NCBI GenBank assembly: GCA_027313705.1
Contig: DAHVDE010000027.1
Location: 62,001 to 126,000 of the forward strand
Length of the DNA: 64,000 nucleotides
From: Actinomycetota bacterium
GTDB lineage: Bacteria; Actinomycetota; Actinomycetes; Streptosporangiales; Streptosporangiaceae
Direction of reading: 5' to 3'
Below the pieces are notes generated by a model. That model saw nothing but the letters and a program-made list of their open reading frames with translations, had not been told where the DNA came from and did not search any database. The position numbers were made by a program, and so were the translations under genes. Shown one piece after another: positions 11,314 through 31,213 of this stretch; position 1 is the stretch's first letter; every line of letters starts with the position of its first letter.

Positions 11314-12255
11314 GTGGCTTCACAATGGTCAGGCCAGGGTCTTCCGCCGGTAGCGCGGGCCAGGCTCGCCGAAATCAAGCAGAGCGGCACCTGGAGCTCG
11401 GCGCTGAGCACGGGCGAGTTCGCCGCGATCAGGTCCGCAGGCTTCGAACCGGTTGGCCAGGTGCTCGGCGCTGCCGTCTACAACCTCGGCTACACCGGTT
11501 ACGGATACGGCTATAGCTGCCCTAGCGCCCTGGGTTTCAGCAGTTACAGCAGGACGACGGCCTGGCAGCCTGGTTTCACGGCGATCTCAAGTTCCCGGCG
11601 ATCCCCGTACGCGGGCCTTGCCCAGGGCATGTATGCCGCCAGGCGCAAGGCGATCGACCGGATGGTAGCCGAGTGCGCCGGCCTTGGCGGGCACGGCGTT
11701 GTCGGGGTGCGCCTCACCATCGGCCAGTTCCCCGCTGGCGGCCTTGAGTTCCACGCGATCGGCACTGCGGTCAGGGCGCCAGGTGCCGTCAGGCTGCGCC
11801 AGCCTTTCACCTCAGACCTCAGCGGCCAGGACTTCGCCAAGCTGATTTCCGACGGCGTCGTGCCTGTCGGCCTGGCGCTCGGGATCTCCATCGGCAGCAG
11901 GCACGACGACTGGATGACCAGGAGTCAGACGCGATGGGCGGCCGGGAATGTAGAGGTCAGCGGTTACACCGAACTGGTCGCCATGACAAGGCACGACGCA
12001 AGAAACGAGATCAGCAAGGACGTCAGGAGGCTCGGCGCGGAAGGCGTAGTTCTCCAGAGCATGGACCTTAGGATCGGCGAACGCGAATGCCCGGCCGCCG
12101 AAGGCGCCCGCGATCATATTGCCGAGGCGACTATTATTGGCACTGCGATCACTCATTTCGGACGTTCGAGCCGAAAGGCAGAGGGTCCGAGCCTTGCGAT
12201 GCTGTCACTTGACCCCGAGCGGCGGCGGGCTGTCCGCCGTGGCATCAGTAACTGA
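11314..12255 (+). CDS. YbjQ-like tandem-domain protein, copy 1
   Basis: A 313-residue protein with two related halves. Each half has an entry block ([18 protein letters not shown], then [19 protein letters not shown]) and a G-rich strand before the exit block: first [12 protein letters not shown] and [11 protein letters not shown], then [10 protein letters not shown] and IIGTAITHF. This is the YbjQ / heavy-metal-binding-domain pattern (a pentameric small beta fold) duplicated within one chain. The GTG start follows GAGGGGACAG. It is the first of three consecutive paralogues on the strand, separated by 11 bases and then a 4-base overlap, so surely an operon. Function is unknown; the metal-binding name of the family is not experimentally secure. 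Confidence 0.78.
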
Positions 12256-12266
12256 CTAATTGCGAG

Positions 12267-16408: not shown

Positions 16409-17266
16409 TCAGCGGTAGCTGTACTCAGGCGACGGGTAAGTGCCGGCCGTCACCTCGCTGGCGAAGTCCTGAGCCGCGCGCTTGAGCAGGCCGGCCGCGT
16501 CCGCGTAGCGCTTGGCGAACTTGGGCACGGTCGGCGTCAGCCCTGCCATGTCTTGCCACACGAGCACCTGAGCGTCGCAGCCGGGTCCGGCGCCGATGCC
16601 TATCGTCGGGATCGCGATGGCGGCAGTCACCTGTGCGGCCAGTTCGGCAGGCACGCACTCGAGCACGCAGGCGAAGGCTCCCGCCTCCTGAAGCGACTTG
16701 GCGTCCTGAAGCAGCCGCTGGCCGTCCTCGCCGCGCCCCTGTACCCGGTAGCCGCCGAACGCGTGCACCGACTGCGGTGTGAGACCGAGATGTGCCATGA
16801 CCGGCACGCCGGCGGTGACGAGTTCCTCGACCGTGCGCACGACGCGATGCCCGCCCTCGAGCTTGACCGCATGGGCGCCGGTCTCCTTGAGGAACCTGGC
16901 CGCGGTCTCCACGGCGGCCTGCACACTGGCCTGGTAAGAGCCGAACGGCAGATCAGCGACGACCAGGGCGCGGCGCGATCCGCGCACCACCGCCGCCGTC
17001 AGCGGGATTAGCTCATCCACCGTGACCGGAATGGTGGTTTCGTGCCCGTAGACCACCATCGCGGCGGAGTCACCGACGAGGAGGACGGGTATCCCCGCTT
17101 CGTCGAACACCTGCGCGGTGAGCGCGTCATACGCGGTGAGCATCGGCCACTTCTCGCCCCGCGCCTTAGCCGCCGCCAGGTCCCTGATCGTGACCCTGCG
17201 GTGAGCAGTCCCGCCGTAAAGTGCTTCTGGCTGTGCCGGTGCTGGCTGGCCCTGTGCTGGCAGCAT
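16409..17266 (-). CDS. panB: 3-methyl-2-oxobutanoate hydroxymethyltransferase
   Basis: First committed enzyme of pantothenate synthesis: transfers a hydroxymethyl group from methylene-tetrahydrofolate to 2-oxoisovalerate; cytosolic (beta/alpha)8 enzyme. The 285-residue product has [28 protein letters not shown] (metal aspartate), the active-site LEGG and [16 protein letters not shown], all characteristic. The ATG is preceded by GGAGG. Length is normal, with a proline/alanine-rich N-terminal tail as in other actinobacteria. Confidence 0.96.
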
Positions 17267-17387
17267 TGTTCCTCCGTGCCTCGTGGCGCCACTGTGGCGT
17301 CCCCGGACGCATCGATCATGACACGAACAACGGCCAGGGGATAGATGTCCTTTCCCCGTGGTTGGGCCGCCTGCCCTGACCAGGGCG

Positions 17388-18308
17388 TCAGCCATCAGCA
17401 TGAACTGGCCGCCGGAGCGGGCGATGAGGCCGCAGTCTCGGCTGTCCCCGAGTTCGTAGCAAGTCATGGCAGGAGAATCGTTCCGGCAGGCGTTCGATGA
17501 GCATATGAGCGCTGGTCAGCTCGGCCAGCACTTGACGGGCACTGGCGCCAGGCAACTCGGCTAGGTCGGCTGCGGCCTGAATAGAGATGTCAGGACCTGG
17601 ATGGACGCAAAGCAGCCTGAACATCAGTGCTGCGGCCGGGCTCAGGCCCCGATAGGACCACCAGAACAGGTTTCGCAGCGCAGTGCGCAGGTCGGCACCG
17701 GTTTCCAGCACATCGAGCCGGTGCCGCGGGTTGGCGGTCTGGGCGGCTAGATCCGCGAGCGTAAGTCCGCGCATCTCCGCGAGTTGGGCGGCCACCCGGA
17801 GCGCGAACGGCAGCCGGCCGCAATGGTCGGCAAGTTCCGCCCCGGCGGCCAGGTCGCCGTCCTGGCTGCGGCTCATCAGGTCAAAGGGCAGCTCGGCTCC
17901 GTCATTCCGAGCGAGCGCAAGAGCGAGGCCAGCGCGCCAGCCCCCGCGTCCGATGAACTGCCGAACCTGCCCGGGCAACTGATTCGGAACGCCCGTTCGG
18001 GCAACTGGCTGAGTTCGCCGGTCGCCAGGTCGAGCAGGCGGCAGGCCCGCCTCGCCGCCGACCAGCCGCCGGCCCGCCGACGAGACGAAATCCGCGTGTT
18101 CATCGCCCGTCAGGCCGGGCGCTTCGGCCAGACGGCGCACCGTCTGCGGATGCGGCCACAATGCCCGGCCGCTTTCCAGGTTGCTGATGGCACGGATGCT
18201 GAGCCCTGCACGCTCGGCCAGTTCGTGCTGAGAGAGGCTGGCCGACCGGCGGAGGTACTGGAGTTGCCGGGCGAACAGAAGACCATCTCCAGCCGCGCCG
18301 CTGCCCAT
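17388..18308 (-). pseudogene. XRE/NB-ARC-type regulator remnant lacking the P-loop
   Basis: The N-terminus is a good XRE helix-turn-helix (SLSQHELAERAGLSIRAISN, then LESGRALWPHPQTVRRL). Actinobacterial proteins with this start continue into an NB-ARC ATPase of roughly 250 residues. Here the linker FIGRGG runs almost directly into the late NB-ARC block CGRLPFALRVAAQLA; the Walker A glycine-lysine loop and the Walker B strand are absent. After FSCHDLLR, where family members continue with a further helical domain, the frame runs into unrelated arginine/proline-rich sequence. I read this as an internal deletion plus 3' truncation. A shortened but functional protein cannot be excluded, since the frame is open. 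Confidence 0.62.
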
Positions 18309-18444
18309 CAATTTCTCATTGGTCGCTCAGTCACCAGTAGCCACGAACCAAGTTGACGGATACCAGTATCGGTGCCCGGTGTGCCATTGGCGTGCAATTT
18401 CGGTGCACCAGCGGTGTGGCAGCCGCATGACCAAGCGGAACACG

Positions 18445-19197
18445 CTAAAAGCGCGGATAGCCGAGCTTGACGTGTAGTTCGTTGATCGCCGCGCGCAGCG
18501 GAGACGGCAGCCGGTCGAGCGGGTAGCGCGGCGGCGGCTGGCGAGGGCCGGGCTCATGATCGCTTTCCGATGGCGGTGCGGCGCTTGGAGCGGTGAGGCC
18601 GAGAAACGACCACACAGCCGTCATCTGCGCCTGCGCGTCTGAGTCCAGGTCTTCCCGCCGCAAGCGCAGCGAAGACCGAGGATTGGCGAGCTGGAAGTCC
18701 AGAAGTGCCTGGGTGGATTCCGCCCACTGAGTACAGACGAAGGTGAAGGCGCTGTCCTGCGCGGCAGGGGAGTCCGGCCAGGGACTTTCATCCGCGAATG
18801 CCCGAGGAAAAGCCCGCATGGCCGCCGTGAGCACCGCATCGCAGCGGCGGTGCAGGCAAATAATACTCGTCTCGGGGAACACCTTAAGGAATGTGCCGGC
18901 CGCACCGATGCCGCTGATGGCGGTTTCGCACCAGCGGGAGGCGCCAGAGGTCGCGGTGCGGGCAGCGGCCATCGATGTCACCAGTGCCCGTATCGACGAC
19001 GTGGCAAGTGCGGTGAGCTCGGCTCGTCTCTCGATCTGCCGCCAGGTCGATGCCACTGACTCGCACATCGGCAGCAGTCCGGTGCGTGCCGTGCAGGAAA
19101 TCGCGGCCGAACTGGCGAGATTGTCCCTCAAGACCTCAGCGCCCGAGTGCGGGAGTGTCAGCACGATGATCGGTGCTCTGCTTGCTGCGGTCGTCAT
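18445..19197 (-). CDS. Sulfotransferase-family protein
   Basis: A 250-residue PAPS-type sulfotransferase-like protein. The N-terminal strand-loop PIIVLTLPHSGAEVLRDNL occupies the place of the 5'-phosphosulfate loop, SIICLHRRCDAVL the 3'-phosphate-binding block, and SLRLRREDL the late RYEDL-type motif. The phosphosulfate loop is atypical (TLPHSGAEV instead of RTGSTLL), so catalytic competence is uncertain. It ends NELHVKLGYPRF, like its broken neighbour. The start lies eight bases after that neighbour's last stop, so both were once cotranscribed. Confidence 0.68.
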   Translation of the reverse strand: MTTAASRAPIIVLTLPHSGAEVLRDNLASSAAISCTARTGLLPMCESVASTWRQIERRAELTALATSSIRALVTSMAAARTATSGASRWCETAISGIGAAGTFLKVFPETSIICLHRRCDAVLTAAMRAFPRAFADESPWPDSPAAQDSAFTFVCTQWAESTQALLDFQLANPRSSLRLRREDLDSDAQAQMTAVWSFLGLTAPSAAPPSESDHEPGPRQPPPRYPLDRLPSPLRAAINELHVKLGYPRF

Positions 19198-19204
19198 GAC
19201 TCGA

Positions 19205-20501
19205 TCAGCCCGGTTGCCAGCAAGTCGCGCCAAGCAGCTGCGACACCATCGTCATCCGTCGGTGAACCTCCGTCCGCATAATCGGCAGGCCCGCTTCGAT
19301 GGGTTCGGACCCGGTCGCCCCTGACTCATCGCGAGCCTCGCCTGCCGCAGCCTCTGGCCGGTAGCGCAGCTCGTTCCGACGGAGCGCCACGCCGAGATTG
19401 ACCTCGCCGTCCAGTACTCGCCGCCAGGTGCCGGCCGAGCCGAGAAGCTCCCAGGACTGGCTCAGCGGCCGCCCGGCGTCGGTCGCGAAAGGATCGATGA
19501 TCTCGGCGGCGCCTTCGGACGGGTCCACCGCGATCAGCGCCGGGCGTTCGATCCGCGACTGTGACTCGTCAGGAAAGACAGCCAGGCGGAAGGCATCGGC
19601 GGTCCTCGCGCGCTGGCCCGCCGCGATCAGCGACCGATCGCCGAGCGCAGCGCCGATCCGCTCCCGCAGCGCTCCTGCCACCAGCGCGGTCTCGCCGCCG
19701 CCTGTCCCAGGCCCGACGGGCCGCTGAATCCGGCCGGGCGCGCCACCCGCCATCGGCAGACGGACGTCCGGTGGCGGCGCGCCAACGCCCCAGGCTTCGG
19801 GAAACACAGGAAGATAGCCGAGCCGCGACGACAGCTCGTTAATGGCCTCGACGATCGGCTGGCTGATCAGGTTCGCCGGGACCGTCCACCCCCGGCCGAC
19901 CGAGTCGCTGCTTATTTCGCTCGTGTACCAGATCTTGTAATCACCGGCACCCAGGTTCTCAGGCTCGGACCGGAAGCATCGCGCCACGATGAGCCAGGGC
20001 GAGGACGCTGTTGCCCGGGCTCGCGGCGATATAGGAGTCGAAGCCGTAACCGATCAGCCCCCACGGGCACGCCTCAAGGCCGGAGGCGATGACATCCATC
20101 GGGTGCCGGTACAAGCAGATGAACTTTGCCTGCGGATAAAGCTGGAGCAATAGTTTCGCGTACGGGGCGCTGCCTAGGCTCTTGTCGCAGAACCAGGTCT
20201 TGCCAAGGCGCCCCAGGTGCGCCGACGTAATGAGACTGACCGACGCCCGCAGTCCGTCTAAGACCTCACCTGGCAGCAGCGGAAGCTCGGCCGGCGGCCG
20301 GCGATCGGGACTGGGATGGCCGGTCGCCAGCGACCAGGTGTTCACCAGTTCATGGCAGAGGACCGGAATGTTCGTCTCGCCTGGGCAGGCGACGTCCTGG
20401 TGAGCGTCGAGGAGGAACCGCAGCAGCGTGGAGCCGGTCCGCGCCTCGCACAGGACGAAGAGCGGATCCGGCTTGTCTAGCGCTGCCTCACTGAGCGACA
20501 C
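19205..20501 (-). pseudogene. Second sulfotransferase, broken by an internal deletion and frame change
   Basis: The 5' part encodes a textbook sulfotransferase N-terminus: LFVLCEARTGSTLLRFLLDA (5'-phosphosulfate loop), KTWFCDKS, and CLYRHPMDVIASGLEACPW. It breaks off after GNSVLALAH and ends twelve codons later. In an overlapping frame the C-terminus resumes at RCFRSEPENLGAGDYKIWYT and reaches AINELSSRLGYLPV, then a further domain ending LDGEVNLGVALRRNELRY. Relative to the family about 60-80 residues, including the RYEDL block, are missing at the junction. The GTG start at the 5' end is inferred. The downstream frame could still be translated alone. Confidence 0.7.
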
Positions 20502-20538
20502 TAGAGTCCCGGTTCCCAGGGATGTAAGTGGTGGCGTA

Positions 20539-20557
20539 GTACTGGCACCAGCAGTAC
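20539..20557. repeat. Inverted repeat upstream of the broken sulfotransferase
   Basis: GTACTG, seven-base spacer, CAGTAC. It lies about 40 bases before the sulfotransferase start on the minus strand and could be an operator or a leader hairpin. Confidence 0.4.
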
Positions 20558-20568
20558 CTTTCAAGCAC

Positions 20569-20585
20569 AAAAAACCCGGACGGGT
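20569..20585 (-). terminator. Intrinsic terminator of the accessory operon
   Basis: On the minus strand a short hairpin (ACCC, loop GTCC, GGGT) is followed by TTTTTT. It lies about 90 bases past the kinase-like gene and separates that operon from the sulfotransferases. The stem is short, but a T run of this length is rare in this GC-rich DNA. Confidence 0.6.
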
Positions 20586-20676
20586 ATTGCGGGCTTGGAG
20601 GTACGGGCGTGACTTGCCCTGTGGGCTTGGCGAAGACCGACTGAACTGGGACAACAGCCGTCCGGACCCCGAGGGG

Positions 20677-21564
20677 CTAGCAGGGTTGGCCTGGGTTGGC
20701 GGCAGCAATGTCCGCTTCGGAACCAGTCCCGATCCGAAGCAAGCAGCGGGCGCGTTCCCGTAGTTCGTCCGCCGCATCGAGATTGTCACCTCGAGTGGTC
20801 GTCTGGATGAGTTCGGCGAGGACAGTCAGCTCCGCAAAGCGGCCTTCCGGCGTGTCCAGAGTCGCCGCGAACTCGATCCGCACTCGTGCCTCCGTCTCGG
20901 GCGCGAACATAGTGTGCGTGGCCAGCAGCGCCGCGTCATAGCCGAACGGCGCTCGGCCCCAGCCTTCCCAGTCGAGCACGACAGGTCCGTCTGTTGTGAG
21001 ATTGGCCCAGTGGCAATCGCCGTGCGCGGTTGCCCAACGGGCGGGCACGGTCGGCACGTTCGGCGCCTCAAGGTAGGTGGGAAGAGCGCGATCGAGATAG
21101 CTCTGTGAGAGCGTGACACGGTCGGTGTCAACGTCGCCGATCGCGGCGAGGGTCACGCGCAGAGACCGCCACCACTCGTCGGGAAGGTCCAGCTCTCGGC
21201 GGAGGAACGGGTCAGTGGAGCACACCGGGCCGTCCGCGAACTCGGTCAGCTCGGCGCGGTAGTCGAAGGTCCCTTGAGTCCAGTCATGCCACGCGAGCAG
21301 CTTGGGCCGACGCACTGAGGCGGGAATGAACTGTGACGCAGTGAGCGTGCCGTCCCAGATCCGACCGTTGCCCTTGGCAATTGGCGCCGCCTGCACGCGC
21401 AGCCAGGCGCGCCCCTGCTCGGTGGCGACTTCACACCCGACCGTGCGGCCACGCCAGCCCCAGATGAAGCGGTCGCCTGTCGGGTGCACGGCGAACCCAA
21501 ACGCGGCGAAGTCGCAGGCTTCGAGCATGCGTGCTTCGGTGCGGAATTCAGGCGGCGAGAACAT
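20677..21564 (-). CDS. Aminoglycoside-phosphotransferase-like small-molecule kinase
   Basis: A protein of about 295 residues with the choline/aminoglycoside kinase fold. The catalytic loop AHGDCHWANL contains the Brenner HGD and the trailing asparagine, and the metal-binding strand is VVLDWEGWG followed by APFGYDAALL. The N-lobe has WLRVQAAP in the place of the ATP-lysine strand, although a lysine there is not obvious. The ATG overlaps the end of the aldo/keto reductase gene by 17 bases, so this is the last gene of a four-gene minus-strand operon. Substrate unknown; it could phosphorylate the cluster product for activation or self-protection. Confidence 0.78.
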   Translation of the reverse strand: MFSPPEFRTEARMLEACDFAAFGFAVHPTGDRFIWGWRGRTVGCEVATEQGRAWLRVQAAPIAKGNGRIWDGTLTASQFIPASVRRPKLLAWHDWTQGTFDYRAELTEFADGPVCSTDPFLRRELDLPDEWWRSLRVTLAAIGDVDTDRVTLSQSYLDRALPTYLEAPNVPTVPARWATAHGDCHWANLTTDGPVVLDWEGWGRAPFGYDAALLATHTMFAPETEARVRIEFAATLDTPEGRFAELTVLAELIQTTTRGDNLDAADELRERARCLLRIGTGSEADIAAANPGQPC

Positions 21565-22450
21565 CGATGAACTTTCGAGCGGCGGAACGGCTGACCTTGG
21601 TCGCAAGAGCACGATGGGCGTCCTTCCAGTGTGCCGTGTTGCTGGTGGAGATCAGTACGCGATCGATACCCGGCGCGCCGGTGAGGACGGCGAGCGCCGC
21701 TTGCGCCGGACTCAGTCCGGGGGCGATGAGCTCGGCGAGTTCCTGATCGATGAGGGACGGCAATTCCCCGCCGTGTAACGGTGCTGAGACGAACGTGCGC
21801 AACCCTGCGGCCGCTGCGTCGGCCAAGGGTCCACGGCCGTCGAGAGCAGCAGCAAGGGGGTCGCTGTTGACGAGGCTGACCGGCAGTTGCACCGCGTTGA
21901 GATGGTGAGTGTGTCCGCCTGCCGCACGGGTGGCGCAGTCGAACAGGTCGGCCACGGTGAACGCACCTTCGGCGAAACCGGTCCATGTGGCGACGCCGTA
22001 GCCGCCGATGATGCGATCACAGGCGGCTGCCTCTAAGGCGGCGAATGCCGTGATCAGGGCGGCCCTTAGGTCGGAGCGATCCGTGTGGCACTGGTCCGGG
22101 TTGTGCAGGAACATCACATCGAGATAGGTCCGGCCGAGATCGCGGCGTGAGCGATCGGTCTGCCAGCGAACGTAGTCCGCCTTGATGCTGTGGCCGCTGG
22201 CGGCAGCTTCGGAGTCGATGACCCCAGCCGCCAAGGCGTCGGCTGCCAGCGCGCGAGGAAGACAGCCAACCTTTGTTGAGATCGCGATTTCAGGGTGCGC
22301 GGTCAGGATGGGGGCAAGTTCGGTGTGGGCAGCGCCGTGGGCATAGTTCGGGGCGGTGTCGATCCACACACATCCGGCTTCTGCGATTGCCGGGGCGGCG
22401 ATGGGAATGTGGGGCACGCGGTGCGTACCCCACCCGAGGCCTGCGTTCAT
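21548..22450 (-). CDS. Aldo/keto reductase
   Basis: A 300-residue NADPH-dependent TIM-barrel reductase. The catalytic tetrad is visible: Asp in WIDTAPNY, Tyr in NYAHG, Lys in ISTKVG and His in VMFLHNPDQ. The C-terminal ISTSNTAHWKDA matches the cofactor adenine-phosphate loop. Its ATG overlaps the stop of the preceding small protein by ATGA, showing tight coupling. Within the cluster it would reduce a carbonyl intermediate, but the substrate cannot be read from the sequence. Confidence 0.87.
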   Translation of the reverse strand: MNAGLGWGTHRVPHIPIAAPAIAEAGCVWIDTAPNYAHGAAHTELAPILTAHPEIAISTKVGCLPRALAADALAAGVIDSEAAASGHSIKADYVRWQTDRSRRDLGRTYLDVMFLHNPDQCHTDRSDLRAALITAFAALEAAACDRIIGGYGVATWTGFAEGAFTVADLFDCATRAAGGHTHHLNAVQLPVSLVNSDPLAAALDGRGPLADAAAAGLRTFVSAPLHGGELPSLIDQELAELIAPGLSPAQAALAVLTGAPGIDRVLISTSNTAHWKDAHRALATKVSRSAARKFIDVLAA

Positions 22451-22851
22451 GCGGCGTGGCCAATCGTGGCTACCTGATGGCGAACCAGCTCAGTTGCCAG
22501 ATTGGCGATGTCGGGAACGGGCAGTCCGGAGATGTCGGCGAGGTCGGACAGGCTCCTCGGCCTACCGTCGATCAGCGTCGTAAGGGCGTGGTACGTCGCC
22601 GGGTCGAGTTCCCACCTCTCCCCGCCAGCCCTCAGAATCACCGTGTCCTCGGTACGTTCCAGGTGGGCGCGTGGTGTAGTCAGACGCAGGGTCGCTGCGG
22701 GGTCGTTTGGAACCTCGGTGACGTGCGGCAGACTGGAGACGGACCTGCCGGGATCGGTCACGTCGCGGTGGTCGAAGAACCGACGGAGCACGTCCTCATC
22801 GTCCATTGCGGCCGCGATGTCGTCGGCAAGCCGGATATCGGAATGTGACAT
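22447..22851 (-). CDS. PqqD-like / winged-helix small protein
   Basis: A 134-residue protein. The C-terminal 75 residues (HLERTEDTVILRAGGERWEL, then ATYHALTTLIDGRPRSLSDL and a final helix) fit a winged-helix/PqqD-like fold, as in peptide-chaperone domains of RiPP pathways and at the C-terminus of JmjC-like cupins. The N-terminal 55 residues are acidic and unassigned. No cupin metal motif is present. It starts 20 bases after the ATP-grasp stop and is coupled to the aldo/keto reductase. A carrier or substrate-recognition role is plausible, but the assignment is weak. Confidence 0.55.
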   Translation of the reverse strand: MSHSDIRLADDIAAAMDDEDVLRRFFDHRDVTDPGRSVSSLPHVTEVPNDPAATLRLTTPRAHLERTEDTVILRAGGERWELDPATYHALTTLIDGRPRSLSDLADISGLPVPDIANLATELVRHQVATIGHAA

Positions 22852-22871
22852 TAGTGTGCGCGGGCTGTTAA

Positions 22872-23852
22872 CTACCTGGGATCACCCGCTTTTAGCGTCC
22901 GGTACAAGGCCATGATGTCGCGGGCGATGCCCTCATGGGTTCGCTGGATGTTGGTCAATCCGGGGCTGCTGTTGCCCTCGATCACCACTGGGCCGCGATC
23001 CGACAAGCCTATGTCCCAGCCGATGTACACGGTTCTTGGCAGCAGCGGGGCCGCTGCCTCGGCGAGCCTTACCGCGGCTGGCAGTTGAGGTACTCGCATG
23101 TGGGCGAAGGGCGTGCCGGTCACAGGGTCGCTCTCGCGGACCCGCATCGTCTCATCGTAGGCGTAGCGGCCCATCTGGCCAGTAGCTTCGTCTACGCCCA
23201 CGTACAGGCCACCGGAGTGCGCGTTGTCGGTCACCTGGGTGGATTCCGCTTGCAGTTTCTGCACGACATACCTGGCTTCCGGGCCGCCCGTTCCCCGTGC
23301 CATGGTGATAACCCGTAGGGTCCTCAGCGGCATGCCGCCTGCCCCCTCGATGAGCTCCTCCAGTATCCAGTCGCCCCACCGATGGCGGTAGCCGACAAGA
23401 TCGAAGGGCTGGCCGTCGCCGCCCATGACCGTGCCCCCTGAGAGCCGAAGCCTCATGACCCCAGCACCGCCGCTGGAGTACCTCGCTGGCTTGATGATCA
23501 CATCGCAGTCGGGCGCGGAGTCGTCGATGGCATCCACGCCATGCGCCCGCCAGCCCAGCAGTGCTGGCTTCGCTATGCCGCCCCCGGCCAGAGCGTGGCT
23601 GAGCGTCACGGCCACGTCGTAGAGGCGGTACCTGAAGTAGTGGAACGGCAGGCATCGCCACCGGGCCGTCAGGACCAGCAGTTCCCACCCGACCATCGGC
23701 CAGGGTTTCCTCGGCGAGTGGCGGCGGAACGCGGGCCAGTACGCGACGCGCATCCGTCCTACCTGATACGCGAGCCAGCGCGGAAGCAGCAGCCTGGACG
23801 CCAGCCGATGAAGACGCCGATCGGCCAGGGCCGACGCCAGGTTGAAATTCAC
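22872..23852 (-). CDS. Sugar-transfer-associated ATP-grasp enzyme
   Basis: An ATP-grasp ligase resembling the 'sugar-transfer-associated' ATP-grasp group. The ATP-binding lysine strand VIIKPARYSSGGAGVMRL, the ILEELIEG clamp and the metal-binding segment GWDIGLSDRGPVVIEGNSSPG are all intact. The N-terminal 100 residues are basic and aromatic (LLLPRWLAYQVGRMRV), as in this group. The GTG used here begins MNFNLASALADRR; a TTG 27 codons upstream extends the frame with unconvincing sequence. It is first in a run of four genes. It would join a carboxylate to an amine or similar nucleophile; the substrate is unknown. Confidence 0.75.
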   Translation of the reverse strand: MNFNLASALADRRLHRLASRLLLPRWLAYQVGRMRVAYWPAFRRHSPRKPWPMVGWELLVLTARWRCLPFHYFRYRLYDVAVTLSHALAGGGIAKPALLGWRAHGVDAIDDSAPDCDVIIKPARYSSGGAGVMRLRLSGGTVMGGDGQPFDLVGYRHRWGDWILEELIEGAGGMPLRTLRVITMARGTGGPEARYVVQKLQAESTQVTDNAHSGGLYVGVDEATGQMGRYAYDETMRVRESDPVTGTPFAHMRVPQLPAAVRLAEAAAPLLPRTVYIGWDIGLSDRGPVVIEGNSSPGLTNIQRTHEGIARDIMALYRTLKAGDPR

Positions 23853-24121
23853 CAGGACAGCGTCATCATGATGTCGGATGGGTGAATCGCCAATCCGCCC
23901 TCCGTCCGCATGCCCGGCAGCACAGCGTGACAAGCGGCGGCTGAGTCACACCGCACCCGCCGACGCCGGATAGCAGCAATCTAGGCCGACTGCCTGCTCA
24001 GGTGAAGACCTGGCGAGCAGTCCGCGATGCTCGCCCCCGCCGCTGGCGCTGTCGGCGCTGACCCGGCGCAAGCGACTACCCTGGGACGCGTCGCGTTTCT
24101 TCGAACATGGAAAGGACGGTC

Positions 24122-25594
24122 GTGACGGCCGCTGGTATCGAATCCGCCGCGCATAGCGCGAAGATTCGGCTCTTCAACTCCCTGGGGCGCCAGGTAACAG
24201 ACTTCCGTCCCGCGACGCCCGGCCAGGTGAGGATGTACTCGTGCGGCCCGACGGTCTACTCCGACCCGCACCTGGGGAACATGCGGGCATACGTTTTCAG
24301 CGACACGCTGCGCCGGATGCTGGAGTGGAAGGGATTCGCCGTCACCCAGGTCGTGAACATCACCGATGTCGGCCACGCGGTCGGCGATGGCGACGAGGGC
24401 GAGGACAAGGTCGAGGTCGCCGCACGCGCCGAGCGGCGGTCGGTGCGGGAGGTCACCGACCATTACACGGCGATGTTCATGGCGGACATGGAAGCCCTCA
24501 ACGTGCTCAGGGCGCATCACTACCCGCGGGCATCGGACTACGTGCCGAAGATGATCGACTTCGCGGTCAAGCTGGACGCCGGCGGCCACACTTACCAGAT
24601 CGCCTCCGGGCTGTACTTCGACACCACCACCTCACCCGGCTACGGTCGGCTGGCGCTGATCCCGCAAGTCGGCCAGCAGGCGGGGAAGCGGGTCAGCGCC
24701 GATGAGAAGCGATCGCCGGCGGACTTCGCGATCTGGCGTGCCGATCCGGCCGGCCAGCGCCGGATCATGCGCTGGGATTCACCGTGGGGGCCGGGGGTGC
24801 CCGGCTGGCACCTGGAGTGCTCGGTGATGAGCATCGACTTGCTCGGGCCGCATTTCGACATCCATACCGGCGGGGTTGATCACCGGGAGTTGCATCACGT
24901 CAACGAGATCGCCCAGTCCGAGGCGTTCCTTGATGACGGGCAGGACTGGGTCCCGCTGTGGATGCACAACGAGTTCCTGCTCTCCGGAGGCGCGAAGCTC
25001 TCGAAGTCGGCAGGCCGGATGCCCACCATCCGGGACCTGGCGGCGGCCGGGGTGCCGCCGCTGGCGTTCCGGTACTTCTTGCTGACCGCGCATTACGCGA
25101 GCCAGCTCGAACTGACCGATGACGGGCTTGAAGCGGCCGCCTCCGCGCTGCGGCGCCTACGCGGGCGCGCCGAAGCGCTGGGGCCGATTCCTGCCGCCGC
25201 GACGCTCGCCGGGGCTCGCGGCCTGGTCTCCAGGGCCGGGGCGGTGAGGCTGGAGCAGATCGACGCGGCGGCGAGCGAGGACCTGAACACGCCGCGGGTG
25301 CTGGCCGAAGTGCAGGCCGCCCTGCGTGACCCGGAACTGTCAGATGATGACAAGGCAGTCCTTGTCGCGGTCGCCGACCAGCTCCTGGGGCTGCGGCTTG
25401 CCGATCCGCCGGAAGAGCCGGCCCGCGCTGGCCGTGCCGTTGACGAGGTGGCGGTCGAGTCGCTGGTCCAGGCCCGCGAGCAGGCCCGGAAAACACGTGA
25501 CTGGGGGGAAGCGGACAGGCTGCGCGATGAGCTTGCTGCAATGGGCGTCACTGTCGCCGATACCCTGGAAGGGCCGAGATGGAGCCTCGCCTGA
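24122..25594 (+). CDS. cysS: Cysteinyl-tRNA synthetase (cluster-embedded, possibly a paralogue)
   Basis: A class I synthetase of about 490 residues that charges tRNA-Cys with cysteine. CGPTVYSDPHLGNMR holds the zinc cysteine and the HIGH motif (HLGN); GWHLECSVM gives the second zinc cysteine; FDIHTGGVD then HHVNEIAQSEAF supplies the His and Glu zinc ligands; KLSKSAGR is the KMSKS loop. The C-terminal helical region with ARKTRDWGEADRLRDELAAMG is a true CysRS trait that MshC ligases lack. The GTG start follows GGAAAGGA. It sits between two accessory operons, divergent from one and only four bases from the convergent end of the other, unlike the usual isp-linked cysS. Confidence 0.88.
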   Translation: MTAAGIESAAHSAKIRLFNSLGRQVTDFRPATPGQVRMYSCGPTVYSDPHLGNMRAYVFSDTLRRMLEWKGFAVTQVVNITDVGHAVGDGDEGEDKVEVAARAERRSVREVTDHYTAMFMADMEALNVLRAHHYPRASDYVPKMIDFAVKLDAGGHTYQIASGLYFDTTTSPGYGRLALIPQVGQQAGKRVSADEKRSPADFAIWRADPAGQRRIMRWDSPWGPGVPGWHLECSVMSIDLLGPHFDIHTGGVDHRELHHVNEIAQSEAFLDDGQDWVPLWMHNEFLLSGGAKLSKSAGRMPTIRDLAAAGVPPLAFRYFLLTAHYASQLELTDDGLEAAASALRRLRGRAEALGPIPAAATLAGARGLVSRAGAVRLEQIDAAASEDLNTPRVLAEVQAALRDPELSDDDKAVLVAVADQLLGLRLADPPEEPARAGRAVDEVAVESLVQAREQARKTRDWGEADRLRDELAAMGVTVADTLEGPRWSLA

Positions 25595-25598
25595 CGGC

Positions 25599-27023
25599 TC
25601 ACGCGGTAGCCGCGGCAACCCCGATCATCGAGGCGAAGATCTGCCTGAGTTCGGCGAACGGCCGTCCCTCGGCCTCGGCGGCGAGCATCGCGCGCTCGAT
25701 CTCGCCGATTGCCGGGTCGGCGAACTCCCAGCGCGGCATGGGCCAGTCGACGGTGAGCAGGCCCCGCTGCCGGTAGTGGTGGTACAGGGGCGTGCCGGGA
25801 TAGGCGATCAGGCGGTTGAGGAAGAAGAACGCGCTCTCGATGTCGCAGGAGTCGATCAGCTCCAGCGCGTCGGTCAGCTCGGGCTTGGTGGTCTCAGCGT
25901 GGTAGGTGATGATGCCGGGTACGACGTCAATACCCAGTTCGCGCGTCATCGCGAGCTGGCTGTGGATGTAATCGCGGCGGTCGGCGGTCCGGGTGTAGCG
26001 CTTGTTGTAGGCGGCCAGTTGGTCAGGGCTGGAGGTCTCCACCCCGACGAATACCCGCCGCAGGCCGGCCGTGCGCAAGAGGGCGAGCACTTCGCGGTCT
26101 AGCGAGTCGACCCGCAGGTCGATCATGAAGGTCAGGTCCAGCCTCGCGGCGATCAGCCGGCGGGCGAAGTCAGCCGCCCGTTCCCGCGATTCCGGGTTCT
26201 TGCTGAGGAACAGGTCATCTGTGACCGTGAGGTGCCGGATACGGTGCCGGCCAGTCAGATCCTGGATCTCGGCGAGCACGTTGTCCAGTGACTTCTGCCG
26301 GTGCCGCTGCGCGCCTGCCAGCAGCGACGCGGTCGCCCCGGTGGTGCAGTAGGTGCAGCGGTAGGGGCAGCCGCGTGAGGTGAAGACTGCCGGGCTCAGG
26401 CCGGCCGCCATCACCAGCGGCAGGTCGGCGCGGATCGGCCAGGGAAGCTGGTCGAAATCAAGCACCTGAGCCGGCTGAAACGGCTCGCCTCTGCGCGCCA
26501 TTCCGGGAATTGGCTGAGGCCAGCGGTCATCGAGCACGGCCAGGCAAAGCTCCGCGAAGGAGTTCTCGGCCTCGCCGCACGCGAGGACATCGAACTCAGT
26601 GTGCTCGTCTAGCACCCGCTCGTGGTTGAGGGTCGCGAAGTCGTGGCCCAGCACAGTGACACAGCCGGGCCAGCGGCGCTTGACCAGGCCCGCGAGGTGG
26701 AGGTTCTCGGTGAACACCTGGGCCGGGCCGGTGAATCCGATCACTTCCGGCGATCCGTGGCGGGCCGCTGCGTGAGTAATGGCCTGCCACGTCTGCTCGA
26801 CGCTGCGGTGGAAGAGGACCTGCCCGTTGACAATGTGGACCGCGATGCCGCGATCGGCGCAGGATGCGGCGAGCGAGCCGAGGCCCAGGTGCTCACCGGG
26901 CAGCGACCAGAAGCCGTTCTCTCCTACCTGGCGGCGGCTGAGTTCGAAGTAGGCGAGCTTGCCCTGGGCGCGGAACTTCGGCATGTGATAGAGCGATGGC
27001 GGGTTGACCAGGAATATCGACAT
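25599..27023 (-). CDS. B12-binding-type radical SAM enzyme
   Basis: A 474-residue class B radical SAM protein. The N-terminal Rossmann-like domain (IFLVNPPSLY, VIGFTGPAQVF, VTVLGHDFATL, VLACGEAENSFAEL) is the usual cobalamin-binding type, although a DxHxxG loop is not obvious. The radical SAM core follows with SRGCPYRCTYCTTGA (three cluster cysteines), TVTDDLFL and RVFVGVETSSPDQL. No SPASM domain or extra cysteine-rich tail is visible. It starts 14 bases after the nucleotidyltransferase stop, as the last gene of a three-gene operon. Methyl transfer or another radical reaction on the cluster product is inferred. Confidence 0.87.
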   Translation of the reverse strand: MSIFLVNPPSLYHMPKFRAQGKLAYFELSRRQVGENGFWSLPGEHLGLGSLAASCADRGIAVHIVNGQVLFHRSVEQTWQAITHAAARHGSPEVIGFTGPAQVFTENLHLAGLVKRRWPGCVTVLGHDFATLNHERVLDEHTEFDVLACGEAENSFAELCLAVLDDRWPQPIPGMARRGEPFQPAQVLDFDQLPWPIRADLPLVMAAGLSPAVFTSRGCPYRCTYCTTGATASLLAGAQRHRQKSLDNVLAEIQDLTGRHRIRHLTVTDDLFLSKNPESRERAADFARRLIAARLDLTFMIDLRVDSLDREVLALLRTAGLRRVFVGVETSSPDQLAAYNKRYTRTADRRDYIHSQLAMTRELGIDVVPGIITYHAETTKPELTDALELIDSCDIESAFFFLNRLIAYPGTPLYHHYRQRGLLTVDWPMPRWEFADPAIGEIERAMLAAEAEGRPFAELRQIFASMIGVAAATA

Positions 27024-27037
27024 GGGCTGCTCCGGTT

Positions 27038-28084
27038 CTAGGTGCTGTCCTCAAGGGCGTGATTGGCGCGGTTCCACGCGGGGTCCATGAGCCGGGCGTC
27101 GTATTCGACGCCGGCGCCTACAGCCCTGTCTGCCGCTGTCGTGCTGAGCAGTTGCTTGTCGGTGAAAACCCGCGTCATCGCGTAGGCGTAGACATCGGCG
27201 GGCCAGTCGGGAAACCTGTGCGCCGCGATCTCTTTGACTTCGCGGAGCAAGATGGCAAGCTCGCCTTGCAGCAGCGCGCATCCCGCCTCGTCCGTGGCCG
27301 GTGAGTGCAGCAGCGCGAGGACCCTGTTGTAGGTCCAGCCTGGCAGCCACAGCTCGCGGTCCAGCAGCGCCTCGACGGCCAGCAGCCGCCATTTCGGGCC
27401 AGGCGGCCAGATCCCCGACAGGAACAGCAAGACATCCAGTGCTTCGGAGCAGACGCGCGCGATCATGTCCCGTGCGACGTCCGCGCGTCCGCGTGCCAGG
27501 CACACGCGGACGCCGTCGCTGGCCATGACCCGGCCACGCGAGAGCAGCCGCACGGCCGCGTCGAACGCTCGTCCCTCCCTTCCGGCGGTCTTGGCCCGCA
27601 CCAGGGACGCCAGCAGCCCGGACGGGTCGTGGACGATCTCCAGCGTGTCGCCGTAAGCGCTGCACTTCTCGTTGTCCCACACGATGTGCGGCTGCGACTC
27701 GTACTCGTAAATGTGCTGGTGGATGTTGAACTCGACTCGGGAATCCGGTTCGACGAACTTGAAGTTCGGAAGCCATCCGGGCAGCAGCCGCTGCGCTGCG
27801 GCGAGGGCGTCAGCAGCCGGGAGCCGGAGCGACTCCGGCGGAATCTCGCAGCTAAGCAGAACTGTTATGTCAATGTCGGAGTATCCGTCGGCGAAGGTAC
27901 GGATGCCCGGCTCAGCCAGGCCGCCGAGCAGGCCCAGCCCGATAACCGCTGACTTTCCGCGCAGCCGGTCCAGCAGTGGCTGAGCGGTAGCGCGAAGTAA
28001 CGGGGCCTGGTCATGCGTGGCCAGAAGCAGGCCGACCGGTATGCGCCAGACAGGCTCCGACGGCGCGAGCATCATCGATCTCAC
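27038..28084 (-). CDS. Nucleotidyltransferase-fold protein
   Basis: A 348-residue protein with a polymerase-beta-like nucleotidyltransferase N-domain: LGLLGGLAEPG is the helix-capping glycine motif and DGYSDIDITVLL the metal-binding DxD. The rest is helical, with LARGRADVARDMIARVCSEA and a C-terminal region rich in Trp and Arg. This arrangement resembles antibiotic adenylyltransferases and DUF4037-type proteins. The start overlaps the stop of the PLP enzyme gene (GTGA), so the two are coupled. It may transfer a nucleotide to a small molecule or peptide; substrate unknown. Confidence 0.72.
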   Translation of the reverse strand: MRSMMLAPSEPVWRIPVGLLLATHDQAPLLRATAQPLLDRLRGKSAVIGLGLLGGLAEPGIRTFADGYSDIDITVLLSCEIPPESLRLPAADALAAAQRLLPGWLPNFKFVEPDSRVEFNIHQHIYEYESQPHIVWDNEKCSAYGDTLEIVHDPSGLLASLVRAKTAGREGRAFDAAVRLLSRGRVMASDGVRVCLARGRADVARDMIARVCSEALDVLLFLSGIWPPGPKWRLLAVEALLDRELWLPGWTYNRVLALLHSPATDEAGCALLQGELAILLREVKEIAAHRFPDWPADVYAYAMTRVFTDKQLLSTTAADRAVGAGVEYDARLMDPAWNRANHALEDST

Positions 28085-29166
28085 TCCGAAGACAGGTAGG
28101 CATCGCGGACAGCCAGTGCGGCGGTCCGGGCATCATCGGTGGAGACTCCGCGGTGAAAGACCGCTCGGACGCGGGTCGGGGTAAACCGGAAGACCAGGAC
28201 CCTGTCTGCGCGGCACTTTTCAAAGAACAGCGCCGAGTCCGGCACGTCGAACATGACGATGTTGGTCTCCTGTAGCACATGCAGGCCCGGCAGTTCGGCC
28301 CGCAGCGATTGCGCGAACAGCGCGGCGTTCGCGCAATCCCGCGCCGGATCGGCGGCGTTGACATCCAGCGCCCGAAGCGCGGCGGACGCGAGTGGCCCAG
28401 GCCGCACCCACGCGCCGCCGAGCATGCGTCGCATATCGCGCATCTCCTCGCGGCGGCCATCGCGCATCAAGAGCATCGCGCCGCAGGGCGCGCCGATCCC
28501 CTTAACCAGGGACACGGCCAGGCCGTCATACAAATCGCCGTAGGCGCGCCAGGGAACGGCCTGCACGACGTTGGCGTACCAGATCCGCGCCCCGTCGCAA
28601 TAGAGCCCCACGCCTCGCCGCGCCAGCCGATCGGTGAGCTGCCGGAGCGCATCGAACTCCTGGGGGGCGCCGCCGCAGGCGGCGTGCGTGTCCTCGACGC
28701 AGACGAGCCGGGTCGGCATGGTGGTGTTCTCCAGCACGCTCAGCAGTGGCTCGACTCCCAGCAGATTGAGGCGACCATCGGCTGAGGTGAATGTGCGGGT
28801 CTGGGTCGACCACAGCCTGGCCGAGAGCCCGTACTCGGAGCGCACGATATGCGCGTCGGCGTCGGCGAGGATTTCGGTTCCCGGCCCGGCCAGCAGCCCG
28901 ATCGCCATCGCGTTGGCCATCCGCCCGGTTGGGACGAACAACGCCGATGCCATCCCGAACATCTCCGACATGCGTGCTTCCAGTTCGTGGCCGGCCGCGT
29001 CGTCATCGTAGGAATCGCTGCCCTCAGGAGCCTGGCAGAGCGCGGCGCGCACCTCCGGGTGCAACGGTGCCACCGCCTCAGACCTCAAGTCGATGAGCCC
29101 GCTGCCTGGCGTGGCCGGGAAGGCGACAGAACTCGATGGCCTGGCAAGCCCGGTCGCAGTGCTCAC
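28081..29166 (-). CDS. Threonine-aldolase / beta-eliminating lyase-like PLP enzyme
   Basis: A 361-residue fold-type I PLP enzyme of the low-specificity threonine aldolase group. FVPTGRMANAMAIGLL is the cofactor phosphate-binding block, CVEDTHAACGGAP the substrate loop, GLYCDGARIWYANV the PLP-aspartate strand, and SLVKGIGAPCGAMLL carries the Schiff-base lysine. The GTG start has GGGGAG upstream. First gene of the lyase, nucleotidyltransferase, radical SAM operon. It may make or cleave a beta-hydroxy amino acid for the pathway. A pair of direct repeats lies in its promoter region. Confidence 0.86.
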   Translation of the reverse strand: MSTATGLARPSSSVAFPATPGSGLIDLRSEAVAPLHPEVRAALCQAPEGSDSYDDDAAGHELEARMSEMFGMASALFVPTGRMANAMAIGLLAGPGTEILADADAHIVRSEYGLSARLWSTQTRTFTSADGRLNLLGVEPLLSVLENTTMPTRLVCVEDTHAACGGAPQEFDALRQLTDRLARRGVGLYCDGARIWYANVVQAVPWRAYGDLYDGLAVSLVKGIGAPCGAMLLMRDGRREEMRDMRRMLGGAWVRPGPLASAALRALDVNAADPARDCANAALFAQSLRAELPGLHVLQETNIVMFDVPDSALFFEKCRADRVLVFRFTPTRVRAVFHRGVSTDDARTAALAVRDAYLSSE

Positions 29167-29239
29167 ACTGGCTCCCCTTCTTGGGTATGGCAGCCGCAGC
29201 GGCTGTCTACGATCCTAGATTCGGCGGCCTGCTAGTCAC

Positions 29240-29276
29240 TCCCAGCGCCAGGAGCATGTGGTTCCCAGCGCCAGGA
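29240..29276. repeat. Direct repeat pair upstream of the PLP enzyme operon
   Basis: TCCCAGCGCCAGGA occurs twice with a 23-base period, 74 to 110 bases before the operon start. The arms TTCC and GGAA around GCGC make each copy a weak palindrome. It could be a regulator site or a relic of the adjacent IS element. Confidence 0.5.
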
Positions 29277-29343
29277 ACTATCTGACCTGCGGCGATGCCT
29301 GACAGGAGCCTGACATTGTCCTACTCGGAAGCCATGTGCCGGG

Positions 29344-29931
29344 GACGCGAACCCCGCCCAGTTGAAGTACTGGACCGCCGCGTGGCTGGAGCGGATCAAG
29401 GACCTGTACGCCGCCCGCGAGGAACTCACGGCCGCAGGGAACGGCGCCGCCGCCCCCGCGCCGCGGGACAAGACGGCCGCCGCCGCGCGGCCGGACGCCG
29501 CGCTCACCGCGATCGACCAGGCGCGGAAGGAGCAGATGACCGCCCCCGGCCTGCAAGAACCCGCGAAGAAAGCCCTTGCCGCCCTGGACCGCGAATGGGG
29601 CGGCCTGACCGCGCACCGCGACTACCCGATGATCGGCCTCGATAACAACGCCGCCGAGAGAATGATCCGCGGCCCCGTTGTGACCAGGAAGAACGCCGGC
29701 GGCTCCCGCAACGGGGACACCGCCCGGAACGCCACCGTGATCTGGACCGCCACCGCCACCGCCCAGATGGCCGGCCTGAACTTCCTGACCTGGCTCACCG
29801 CCTACCTCGACGAATACGGCCGCAACGACGGGAAACCCCTCGCCGGCCCGGACCTGGAACGCTTCCTGCCCTGGAACGCCAGCCCCGGCGACCTCCGCAC
29901 CTGGGCACAGCCACCGCCATCACCCGGATAA
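29344..29931 (+). mobile_element. IS66-family transposase remnant, 5'-truncated
   Basis: The frame encodes only the C-terminal part of an IS66 transposase. IGLDNNAAERMIRGPVVTRK holds the DNNxxE catalytic block, followed by NFLTWLTAYLDEY and a C-terminal block beginning LERFLPWN, both typical of IS66 ends. The remaining segment begins near YWTAAWLERIKDLYAAREEL and all upstream catalytic residues are absent, so it cannot transpose. Companion genes of IS66 (tnpA, tnpB) are not visible. It marks the edge of the accessory cluster and suggests how the region was assembled. Confidence 0.85.
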
Positions 29932-30574
29932 ACCAGCGGCGAACACACCCGCACCAGCATGGCCACCGAACCGGCCACGCCGGCTATCAGCATGCCAATT
30001 CCCAGGACTTCCGAGTACTTACCCCGGATCTTCAGGCGAAGACCAAGCGTGACCGATGCTTCCGAAAGAAGGAGATTCAATACCCATTGATGCGACTACG
30101 GATCATGACCCTACTGTGATGTGACGGAGGTCACATCCGGCCGGAATTTCGAACCTTCCCGAACGTGCGCGAACCAGCGCGGCCCTCGCTCGGGAGGAAT
30201 GACGAGAAACGACGAGACATCGCGGAGGGTGATCTTCCGAATTGCATCTTGTGTGCCCCGAACTCGGGGTTTACCGTGATGTATCCGGGCTTCCCGCCCG
30301 TTCTTCCTTTCCGCCTATACCCGACATGAGAGGAGATAGCGCCAATCCGTGAGATCGGCTATCGATCCGGTAAGGTCAGCGCACTCAAACGACCCGGTCG
30401 CGCCGGTCGGCCCTGAGGCAGGCCTGGCCGGTGAGCCAGGCCGGGCCGATGAGCGCGACACCGGGCCAGGTCATGCCTGACGCTGAAATCAAGGACCGCC
30501 GCGCTGCGACTCCCGCCAGCCTGATCAGCCCGTGCGTTCTACCCGATAACCTATGACCAGAATGTCGTAGCCGT
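29932..30574. other. Gene-poor stretch between IS66 remnant and tetR
   Basis: About 640 bases with no convincing gene. A minus-strand frame at the left encodes a hydrophobic segment (VLGIGMLIAGVAGSVAML) that may be a fragment cut by the IS element. A perfect CRP-type box lies in the middle, followed by a small hairpin (CCCCG AACT CGGGG) about 120 bases further. A small RNA could start after the box, but nothing proves it. Confidence 0.5.
30118..30137. promoter_or_regulatory. CRP-type binding box
   Basis: GATGTGAC, four bases, GTCACATC: a perfect 20-base palindrome containing the exact TGTGA-N6-TCACA consensus used by CRP proteins, including mycobacterial Crp. It lies 440 bases before tetR, too far for ordinary control of that gene. 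Confidence 0.68.
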
Positions 30575-31213
30575 ATGGCAACTCGCACAGGGGCTAACCG
30601 CCGGATGACCACCCTCCACGCACCGCAGGAACGCCGCAGCCGGGCGGGACGTCCAAGGAGCATGCAGGCTGAGCGGGCGATCATCGACGCGGCTCTGGAC
30701 GAGTTCGCCGCGGCTGGGCCGCAAGGGCTGGCCATCGAGAAGGTCGCGGCCAAGGCAGGGGTCGGCAAGGCCACTATCTACCGGCGCTGGCCAGGTAAGG
30801 AAGATCTCCTGCTCGACGCGATCTCGGCGATGCGCACCGAGTTGCCTGAGCCCAAGGGCGAGTCGGTCAGGGAGGACCTGGCCGCCTTGCTTGACGCGAT
30901 GAGCCGCGAGTCAGGGGAGCCGCGCTTGGCCAGGCAGTTCGCGTTGCTCCTCGGTGACGGCGGCGCCTATCCGCGACTGCTTGAACGCTACCTGGAAACA
31001 GTGGTCGAACCCCGTCGCCAGAGCGTGCGCAACGTGCTCAGGCGCGGCGTGGCCACCGGGGAACTGCGCGAGGAGACCAATATCGAGGTCACCATCGACA
31101 TGCTGACCGGCGCCGTGCTCGCCAGGCCAAGGCACGGCGGACGGGATCGTACCGACCGCGGTTACGCCCGCCACGTTGTCGATGAACTGCTGATCGGGCT
31201 GGCTTCACGGTAG
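30575..31213 (+). CDS. TetR-family transcriptional regulator
   Basis: A protein of about 212 residues. The helix-turn-helix reads GLAIEKVAAKAGVGKATIYRRW with the lead-in AIIDAALDEFAAAG, as in TetR repressors. The C-terminal domain (RLARQFALLLGDGGAYPRL, then EVTIDMLTGAVLARP) is the ligand/dimerisation part of the TetR_C_11 type. The ATG at the 5' end and another twelve residues in are both possible starts. A metallo-hydrolase gene follows after nine bases on the same strand, probably in one operon. Confidence 0.88.
   Translation: MATRTGANRRMTTLHAPQERRSRAGRPRSMQAERAIIDAALDEFAAAGPQGLAIEKVAAKAGVGKATIYRRWPGKEDLLLDAISAMRTELPEPKGESVREDLAALLDAMSRESGEPRLARQFALLLGDGGAYPRLLERYLETVVEPRRQSVRNVLRRGVATGELREETNIEVTIDMLTGAVLARPRHGGRDRTDRGYARHVVDELLIGLASR

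Follow-up and report, generated by a model that had tools for sequence, protein, structure and literature searches.

Why should a short run of genes with the look of a biosynthetic pathway enclose a complete gene for a cysteinyl-tRNA synthetase (CysRS)? The question is raised by a stretch of 64,000 nucleotides (the window; positions 62,001 to 126,000 of contig DAHVDE010000027.1, assembly GCA_027313705.1) from a member of the Streptosporangiaceae. An earlier note on this DNA had described, at 20677-29166, eight genes in two minus-strand operons around a complete CysRS gene, and had taken them for an undescribed biosynthetic locus built around a CysRS paralogue. All eight open reading frames (ORFs) are present as described, with the full-length CysRS between the two operons, and a housekeeping CysRS is encoded elsewhere in the genome, which supports the reading as a paralogue. 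The right operon runs, on the minus strand from 29166, from a pyridoxal phosphate (PLP) aldolase through a nucleotidyltransferase to a B12-binding radical S-adenosylmethionine (rSAM) enzyme. The left one, also on the minus strand and divergent from the CysRS, runs from an ATP-grasp ligase through a PqqD-like protein and an aldo/keto reductase to a kinase-like protein.

The CysRS is an extra copy, one clade of such synthetases is found with the same nucleotidyltransferase in three unlike settings, and five genes of the locus are under purifying selection. The synthetase is very probably a working part of the cluster. Quite possibly, rather than probably, it serves self-resistance by duplicating the target of a cysteine-like product that carries a nucleotide, a reading of the extra synthetase that the earlier note did not raise.

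The Second Cysteinyl-tRNA Synthetase

The source genome (G000, a draft in 118 contigs) carries its housekeeping CysRS on contig C101 and MshC-like genes on C27 and C29. The window gene is therefore not the sole essential copy in this genome, a case that the earlier note had set against its own reading. Nor is it an MshC, as it reaches 177.3 bits with TIGR03447 (cut-off 485.1) and has the anticodon domain PF23493. It scores 371 bits with TIGR00435 (cut-off 340), has the catalytic domain PF01406 besides the anticodon domain, and keeps the HLGN and KLSKS motifs as well as what we take to be the zinc-ligand positions. Its insert is long, as in the Borrelia structure 3sp1. The window and housekeeping proteins are 36% identical over aligned positions (33.5% by BLAST). 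The window protein is thus found to be an extra full-length synthetase, strongly diverged from the housekeeping one and intact in its catalytic and anticodon parts, as is typical of self-resistance copies; its 36% is near the identity of about 30% given for resistance copies of SerRS, IleRS, and TrpRS in PMC9437257.

A Recurrent Nucleotidyltransferase

The nucleotidyltransferase of the window matches no family of Pfam, NCBIfam, or PHROG, and owes its name to a GG..SDxD motif that we take to mark such enzymes. Its homologues in genomes G592 and G1023 weakly match DUF4037 (21.1 and 17.6 bits, cut-off 22.1); the window protein is 36% identical to the former over 328 amino acids (aa) and 38% to the latter over 202 aa. 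The motifs SDxD, N-x-HQ, and EYE are invariant across the four sequences of the group. The predicted structure is uninformative, with a mean predicted local distance difference test score (pLDDT) of 37.5.

This family is rare. Among 297 genomes of the family, a three-sequence profile finds it in three, namely G000, G420, and G592, and among the 54 of genus g7, to which G592 belongs, in two, G592 and G1023, which makes four genomes altogether. The family samples for the ATP-grasp, CysRS, and nucleotidyltransferase searches were of 297 genomes each, drawn from a larger group and taken here as one set. Single-sequence searches find it in one of five genus genomes and one of 394 class genomes, the window's own both times. 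At most seven candidates per genome were scored with the profile, and at most five in the class search and in the family search for CysRS, so that these absences are not strict. A scan of contigs with a two-sequence alignment and two peptide patterns, which reaches close relatives only, gave 43 pattern matches and a single relative, G420's own contig. No relative of the nucleotidyltransferase was found on plasmids, and none of it, the rSAM enzyme, or the ATP-grasp on viral contigs.

In all four genomes the nucleotidyltransferase lies near a CysRS of one clade. The distance is about 1.4 kb in the window and also in G420 (where it spans two contigs overlapping inside the rSAM gene), 13.7 kb in G592, and 7.1 kb in G1023. 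The earlier note had proposed to compare the neighborhoods of the nucleotidyltransferase and ATP-grasp homologues and had allowed that these genes might prove unlinked elsewhere. For the nucleotidyltransferase, the four genomes argue against this; the ATP-grasp, found in two of the 297 family genomes (G000 and G420), can be compared with G420 only, where it is incomplete. In a tree of 32 CysRS, the window, G420, G592, and G1023 proteins form one clade (support 96/95), and six alignment positions carry residues that are fixed in it and occur in no other row. Its sister group (100/100) consists of seven CysRS copies whose genomes, also of the family, gave no nucleotidyltransferase in the profile search (some of these genomes are 67-86% complete). 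The housekeeping CysRS, a type that G592, G420, and G1023 each hold as well as G000, lie far from the clade. In an earlier tree, which had 35 rows and lacked G1023, the support of the clade was 94/91; for the second, four rows were dropped (three MshC-like and one degenerate CysRS) and G1023 was added. Because the two genes are linked in four of four genomes and three gene settings, and the sister CysRS come from genomes in which the nucleotidyltransferase was not found, the pair looks like a recurrent core.

Related Settings and a Possible Supply of Cysteinyl-tRNA

The closest CysRS outside the locus, 60% identical, is that of G592, where its gene overlaps an acyl-CoA-dehydrogenase-like gene. 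The region also holds genes for a phosphoenolpyruvate (PEP)-mutase-like and a homocitrate-synthase-like protein, PhyH, phosphoribosyl pyrophosphate synthase, and adenine phosphoribosyltransferase and, further along, for an aconitase, an isopropylmalate-dehydrogenase-like protein, an MshC-like ligase, an ATP-grasp, an aldolase, and the nucleotidyltransferase. In G1023 the CysRS, also 60% identical to that of the window, is accompanied by adenylation and condensation domains, a B12-radical SAM enzyme, DAHP synthase, PhyH, and a P450. At E 1e-3 in tblastn, the window aldolase (41% identical over 320 aa to the homologue of the G592 region), nucleotidyltransferase, and CysRS find matches in the G592 stretches, and the nucleotidyltransferase, CysRS, and rSAM enzyme in G1023. 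The ATP-grasp of the G592 region (locus L115) and its neighbor gene were not counted as counterparts of window genes. The same holds for a nucleotidyltransferase-HEPN gene (11958-12848) and a PqqD gene (15467-15748) of locus L107, which have no detectable homology to those of the window.

In both G592 and G1023 the nucleotidyltransferase gene is directly adjoined by an MshC-like ligase gene (the two products are 40% identical), and this neighborhood, found in two of the three settings, therefore points to cysteine. These ligases (L115 10695-11918 and L152 1942-3069) come in addition to other MshC-like genes of the same genomes; they are possible cysteine-amide-forming biosynthetic enzymes. The main rival to self-resistance starts from here: the CysRS would make Cys-tRNA as an activated cysteine donor for an enzyme of the cluster, as in the precedents of AcmD/AcmF, SbzA, and TglB described in PMC12945691, and the two window proteins without an assigned family could hide the transferase. 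Yet among the eight genes Pfam and NCBIfam searches matched nothing LanB-like, no cyclodipeptide synthase, no Fem/GNAT-type protein, and no second synthetase-like one, and the housekeeping CysRS already makes Cys-tRNA. The earlier note's ideas of aminoacyl-tRNA as a substrate and of a product that contains cysteine or a beta-hydroxy amino acid stay conjectural; no known tRNA-dependent transferase was matched. We consider this explanation rather unlikely, if worth keeping in mind. It does not exclude self-resistance: by analogy with ascamycin, where, according to the same source, AcmD feeds AcmF with aminoacyl-tRNA and is also a more resistant copy, one synthetase can do both.

Other Copies of the Synthetase and Apparent Mobility of the Locus

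A CysRS at E 1e-95 or better to that of the window occurs in 15 of the 297 family genomes (within genus g7, the CysRS results concern the genomes with the nucleotidyltransferase rather than all 54). Some other copies have company of their own. In genus g177 the secondary CysRS adjoins an acyl-CoA-ligase-like gene in four of five genomes (L109, L110, L112, and L085; by eye, that is, with functions read from translations and not from a family search), which is a different partnership. Contig C43 of G452 has tandem CysRS genes (L111 7126-8526 and 8602-10083) amid P450, acyltransferase, AMP-ligase, and aminotransferase genes. In the second, KMSKS is gone along with further residues of the active site, and the tandem could, by analogy, be a cysteine version of AcmD/AcmF, a charging enzyme with a degenerate transferase. 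On plasmid pOCN014 of Vibrio coralliilyticus a CysRS (L089 9010-10380) lies beside a nonribosomal peptide synthetase cluster that also encodes a serine O-acetyltransferase and an enzyme with the class V aminotransferase fold. On a plasmid of Streptomyces xanthii, another (L090 8995-10392) is less than 8 kb from genes for a rifampin ADP-ribosyltransferase and for a further tRNA ligase of class I; this may be a resistance island.

The locus itself sits in about 13 kb of DNA between a gene at 16409-17467 and a TetR gene at 30575-31213. Five relatives were compared at this site. The same flanking genes lie about 0.3 kb apart in G002 and are separated by a single ORF (a major facilitator superfamily transporter by eye) in G004 and G420; G003 has the TetR gene without the cluster, but there the 16409-17467 gene is also missing, and the contig of G001 ends too early to tell. 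Judged from these sequences, the comparison shows the locus to have been gained by insertion. An IS66-like transposase piece remains at 29362-29931. Contig C115 of the same genome holds a decayed rSAM-CysRS copy (L016 6080-7254) with 83-90% DNA identity, frame changes, and large deletions; no other cluster gene was matched in this 14-kb stretch. About 4 kb from the decayed copy there is, by eye, an IS66-like remnant.

Genome G420, of another genus of the family, has the N-terminal part of the ATP-grasp, the CysRS, the rSAM enzyme, the nucleotidyltransferase, and the aldolase in the order of the window, on two contigs of 3.2 and 3.35 kb. Its cluster DNA is 92-94% identical to that of the window, as against 71-72% for two other regions. 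Residues 3-115 of the ATP-grasp are conserved, and beyond them the G420 contig diverges. The ratio of nonsynonymous to synonymous substitution rates between window and G420 is 0.11-0.26 in the five comparable genes (for the ATP-grasp over 113 residues only), which have zero stop codons and gaps confined to the ATP-grasp. These values and the lack of stop codons argue that the genes of the cluster are real; the PqqD-like, reductase, and kinase genes have no counterpart in G420 and hence stand outside the comparison. It is possible that the G420 contigs are mis-binned from a close relative of the source genome, and the stronger grounds for transfer are therefore the insertion and the decayed copy. 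Together with the excess of identity in G420, these suggest that the locus is mobile.

The distribution also bears on the idea that the CysRS is a backup or stress synthetase caught by chance with a biosynthetic island and without functional tie to the product. This would suit the 15 family genomes with such a CysRS and the sister copies, whose contexts do not look biosynthetic. It does not suit the finding that, across three different settings, one CysRS clade lies close to one and the same rare nucleotidyltransferase, nor the convergent arrangement of CysRS and rSAM genes, lying tail to tail with 4 bp between their stop codons in the window and retained in G420 and in the decayed copy. We regard chance association as improbable.

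The Remaining Enzymes

The activity families listed in the earlier note hold for the kinase, reductase, ATP-grasp, CysRS, rSAM, and PLP enzyme, each of which has a family match, but the nucleotidyltransferase and the PqqD-like protein match none above cut-off (Pfam and NCBIfam for the latter). The aldolase scores 183.5 bits with the GntG family, below its cut-off of 230. The rSAM enzyme is not a specific marker, because 17 of 395 other genomes of the phylum match it at E 1e-25 or better with 25-32% identity, and we do not use it to recognize the cluster. The model of the PqqD-like protein has three strands followed by helices, with pLDDT block means of 68-83 over residues 61-130 and an overall mean of 61.3.

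A pathway to a ribosomally synthesized and post-translationally modified peptide (RiPP), in which the PqqD-like protein would bind a precursor peptide modified by the ATP-grasp, rSAM, and other enzymes, would fit a Foldseek list in which RiPP recognition elements are frequent and a nearest NCBIfam rSAM model, ApyD, that is a RiPP enzyme, but it is most doubtful, as the best Foldseek match has an E of only 0.096 and is not significant, no recognition element was recognized in the 50 rows of a second structure aligner, the rSAM enzyme reaches 131.5 bits with ApyD against a cut-off of 750, and no precursor-like ORF stood out among ORFs of at least 60 aa.

Self-Resistance as the Proposed Function

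Self-resistance by target duplication remains the reading that we prefer. The locus would be a small, mobile biosynthetic gene cluster with the nucleotidyltransferase and a dedicated full-length CysRS as its core. Judging from their families, the aldolase, the B12-radical SAM enzyme, and probably the reductase, ATP-grasp, and kinase would build and couple an amino-acid-like small molecule, to which the nucleotidyltransferase would attach a nucleotide. The resulting compound would resemble cysteinyl-adenylate and block the ordinary CysRS. The divergent CysRS of the cluster, less sensitive, would keep tRNA-Cys charged in the producer.

Several points weigh against this proposal. The CysRS of the clade share no active-site motif change that would mark resistance, their KMSKS-type motif being KLSKS in the window, KISKS in G592, and KMAKS in G1023. 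No transporter was matched among the eight cluster genes, and the nucleotidyltransferase may itself be a resistance enzyme. Eight secondary CysRS genes, with 52-58% identity, have neighbors that are not clearly biosynthetic by eye, and because of these copies this group of CysRS must be said to live outside clusters as well. The settings share little beyond the core. The aldolase is common to two of the three, as is the MshC-like ligase, a gene that the window cluster lacks; the rSAM enzyme of G1023 is only 24% identical, which is no evidence of a shared step; and neither the G592 nor the G1023 stretches gave a match at E 1e-3 to the reductase, PqqD-like protein, ATP-grasp, or kinase. Only in the window does the left operon accompany the core, as the G420 match ends inside the ATP-grasp. 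Finally, the label "phosphonate" for G592 is tentative, because its PEP mutase and homocitrate synthase score above the Pfam cut-offs and below the NCBIfam equivalog cut-offs.

More tentatively still, there may be an actinobacterial family of products that inhibit CysRS, in which the shared nucleotidyltransferase installs the nucleotide of a cysteinyl-adenylate mimic, a dedicated resistant CysRS protects the producer, and the remainder of the molecule (phosphonate-like, peptide-like, or ATP-grasp-coupled) varies. The recurrent linkage suggests such a natural-product family acting on an essential enzyme. If such clusters are marked by one synthetase clade, this clade and its linked marker enzyme offer both a search handle and a prediction of the target that is open to simple enzyme assays, and a nucleotidyltransferase family of unassigned role gains a partner, the CysRS, that has so far been constant.

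Features of the Locus

The coordinates are collected in Table 1. The ATGA and GTGA overlaps pointed out earlier are at 22447-22450 (PqqD-like and reductase genes) and 28081-28084 (aldolase and nucleotidyltransferase genes), but the T-run terminator claimed with them is weak: the sequence CCCGTCCGGGTTTTTT downstream of the kinase gene has a stem of 4-5 bp and is absent from the list of the terminator scan. Upstream of the aldolase operon, at 29180-29290, there is a direct repeat of TCCTGGCGCTGGGA, mostly retained in G420, which is a possible regulator site. For regulatory RNAs, the sole Rfam match (E<=1, window 15-33 kb) is sR32, presumably an archaeal small nucleolar RNA, below its gathering score and taken as chance; ARAGORN found no tRNA in the window. 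Sulfotransferase-like ORFs at 18445-20789 adjoin the cluster and are excluded from it because nothing ties them to the core. By eye, the ORF at 19205-19987, in another frame, seems to hold the C-terminal part of a sulfotransferase begun in 19959-20789, and one sulfotransferase gene may thus be broken or mis-sequenced.

Table 1. Positions in the window of the cluster genes and associated features
Feature	Position	Strand	Basis or remark
Cluster-bearing insertion, ~13 kb	17400..30570	.	boundaries approximate
Kinase-like protein, APH family	20677..21612	-	PF01636 28 bits (cut-off 23.2); final gene of left operon; no counterpart in the G592 and G1023 stretches
Aldo/keto reductase	21548..22450	-	PF00248 47.7 bits (cut-off 24)
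PqqD/RRE-like winged-helix protein, tentative	22447..22851	-	predicted structure only
ATP-grasp ligase, ATPgrasp_ST type	22872..23933	-	PF14397 89.1 bits (cut-off 31.4)
Secondary cysteinyl-tRNA synthetase, complete	24107..25594	+	TIGR00435, PF01406, PF23493
B12-binding radical SAM enzyme	25599..27023	-	PF02310 and PF04055
Nucleotidyltransferase, unnamed family	27038..28084	-	motif and homologues weakly matching DUF4037
PLP aldolase, threonine-aldolase type	28081..29166	-	PF01212 (Beta_elim_lyase) 169.1 bits; opens right operon
Conserved region upstream of right operon	29167..29338	-	DNA match to G420 extends to 29338

Comparison with Known Systems

Several tRNA synthetases have known natural inhibitors. 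None was found for CysRS in the literature covered, including passages of PMC9437257, PMC7916415, and PMC12945691, and among titles and abstract openings there was no cluster with a CysRS resistance copy; these absences are weak evidence, as papers under subscription were mostly outside reach. The duplication table of PMC9437257 has as CysRS entries the UGA-decoding form and MshC. The MshC of mycothiol synthesis resembles the window protein in the CysRS fold and in cysteine activation, and MshC-like genes occur in two of the related settings. It differs in that the window protein keeps the anticodon domain and scores well below the MshC cut-off.

In the 3-thiaglutamate (PEARL) pathway of TglB (PMC12945691), cysteine from Cys-tRNA also enters a natural product, but its LanB-like ligase and scaffold peptide were not matched in the window cluster. 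The PEP-mutase-like, homocitrate-synthase-like, aconitase, and isopropylmalate-dehydrogenase-like set of G592 can be likened to the FR-900098-type phosphonate pathway; none of these G592 genes is in the window cluster. The acm cluster of ascamycin (PMC12945691) likewise has a complete extra synthetase within the cluster. That synthetase handles alanine and not cysteine, and no AcmF-like second synthetase was matched in the window cluster.

A further likeness is to target duplication. According to PMC9437257, an additional aminoacyl-tRNA synthetase in a cluster can be a resistant version of the target, as with the SerRS of albomycin, the IleRS of mupirocin, and the TrpRS of indolmycin, where an extra, full-length, and strongly diverged copy lies beside biosynthetic genes and the housekeeping copy lies elsewhere. 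CysRS is not among the resistance cases in the passages covered, and the putative resistance copy of the window cluster differs also in its repeated association with one nucleotidyltransferase across dissimilar settings. That clusters can hold extra tRNA synthetases is thus already known; a CysRS among them whose partner is a recurrent nucleotidyltransferase is, to judge from what we have seen, apparently new.

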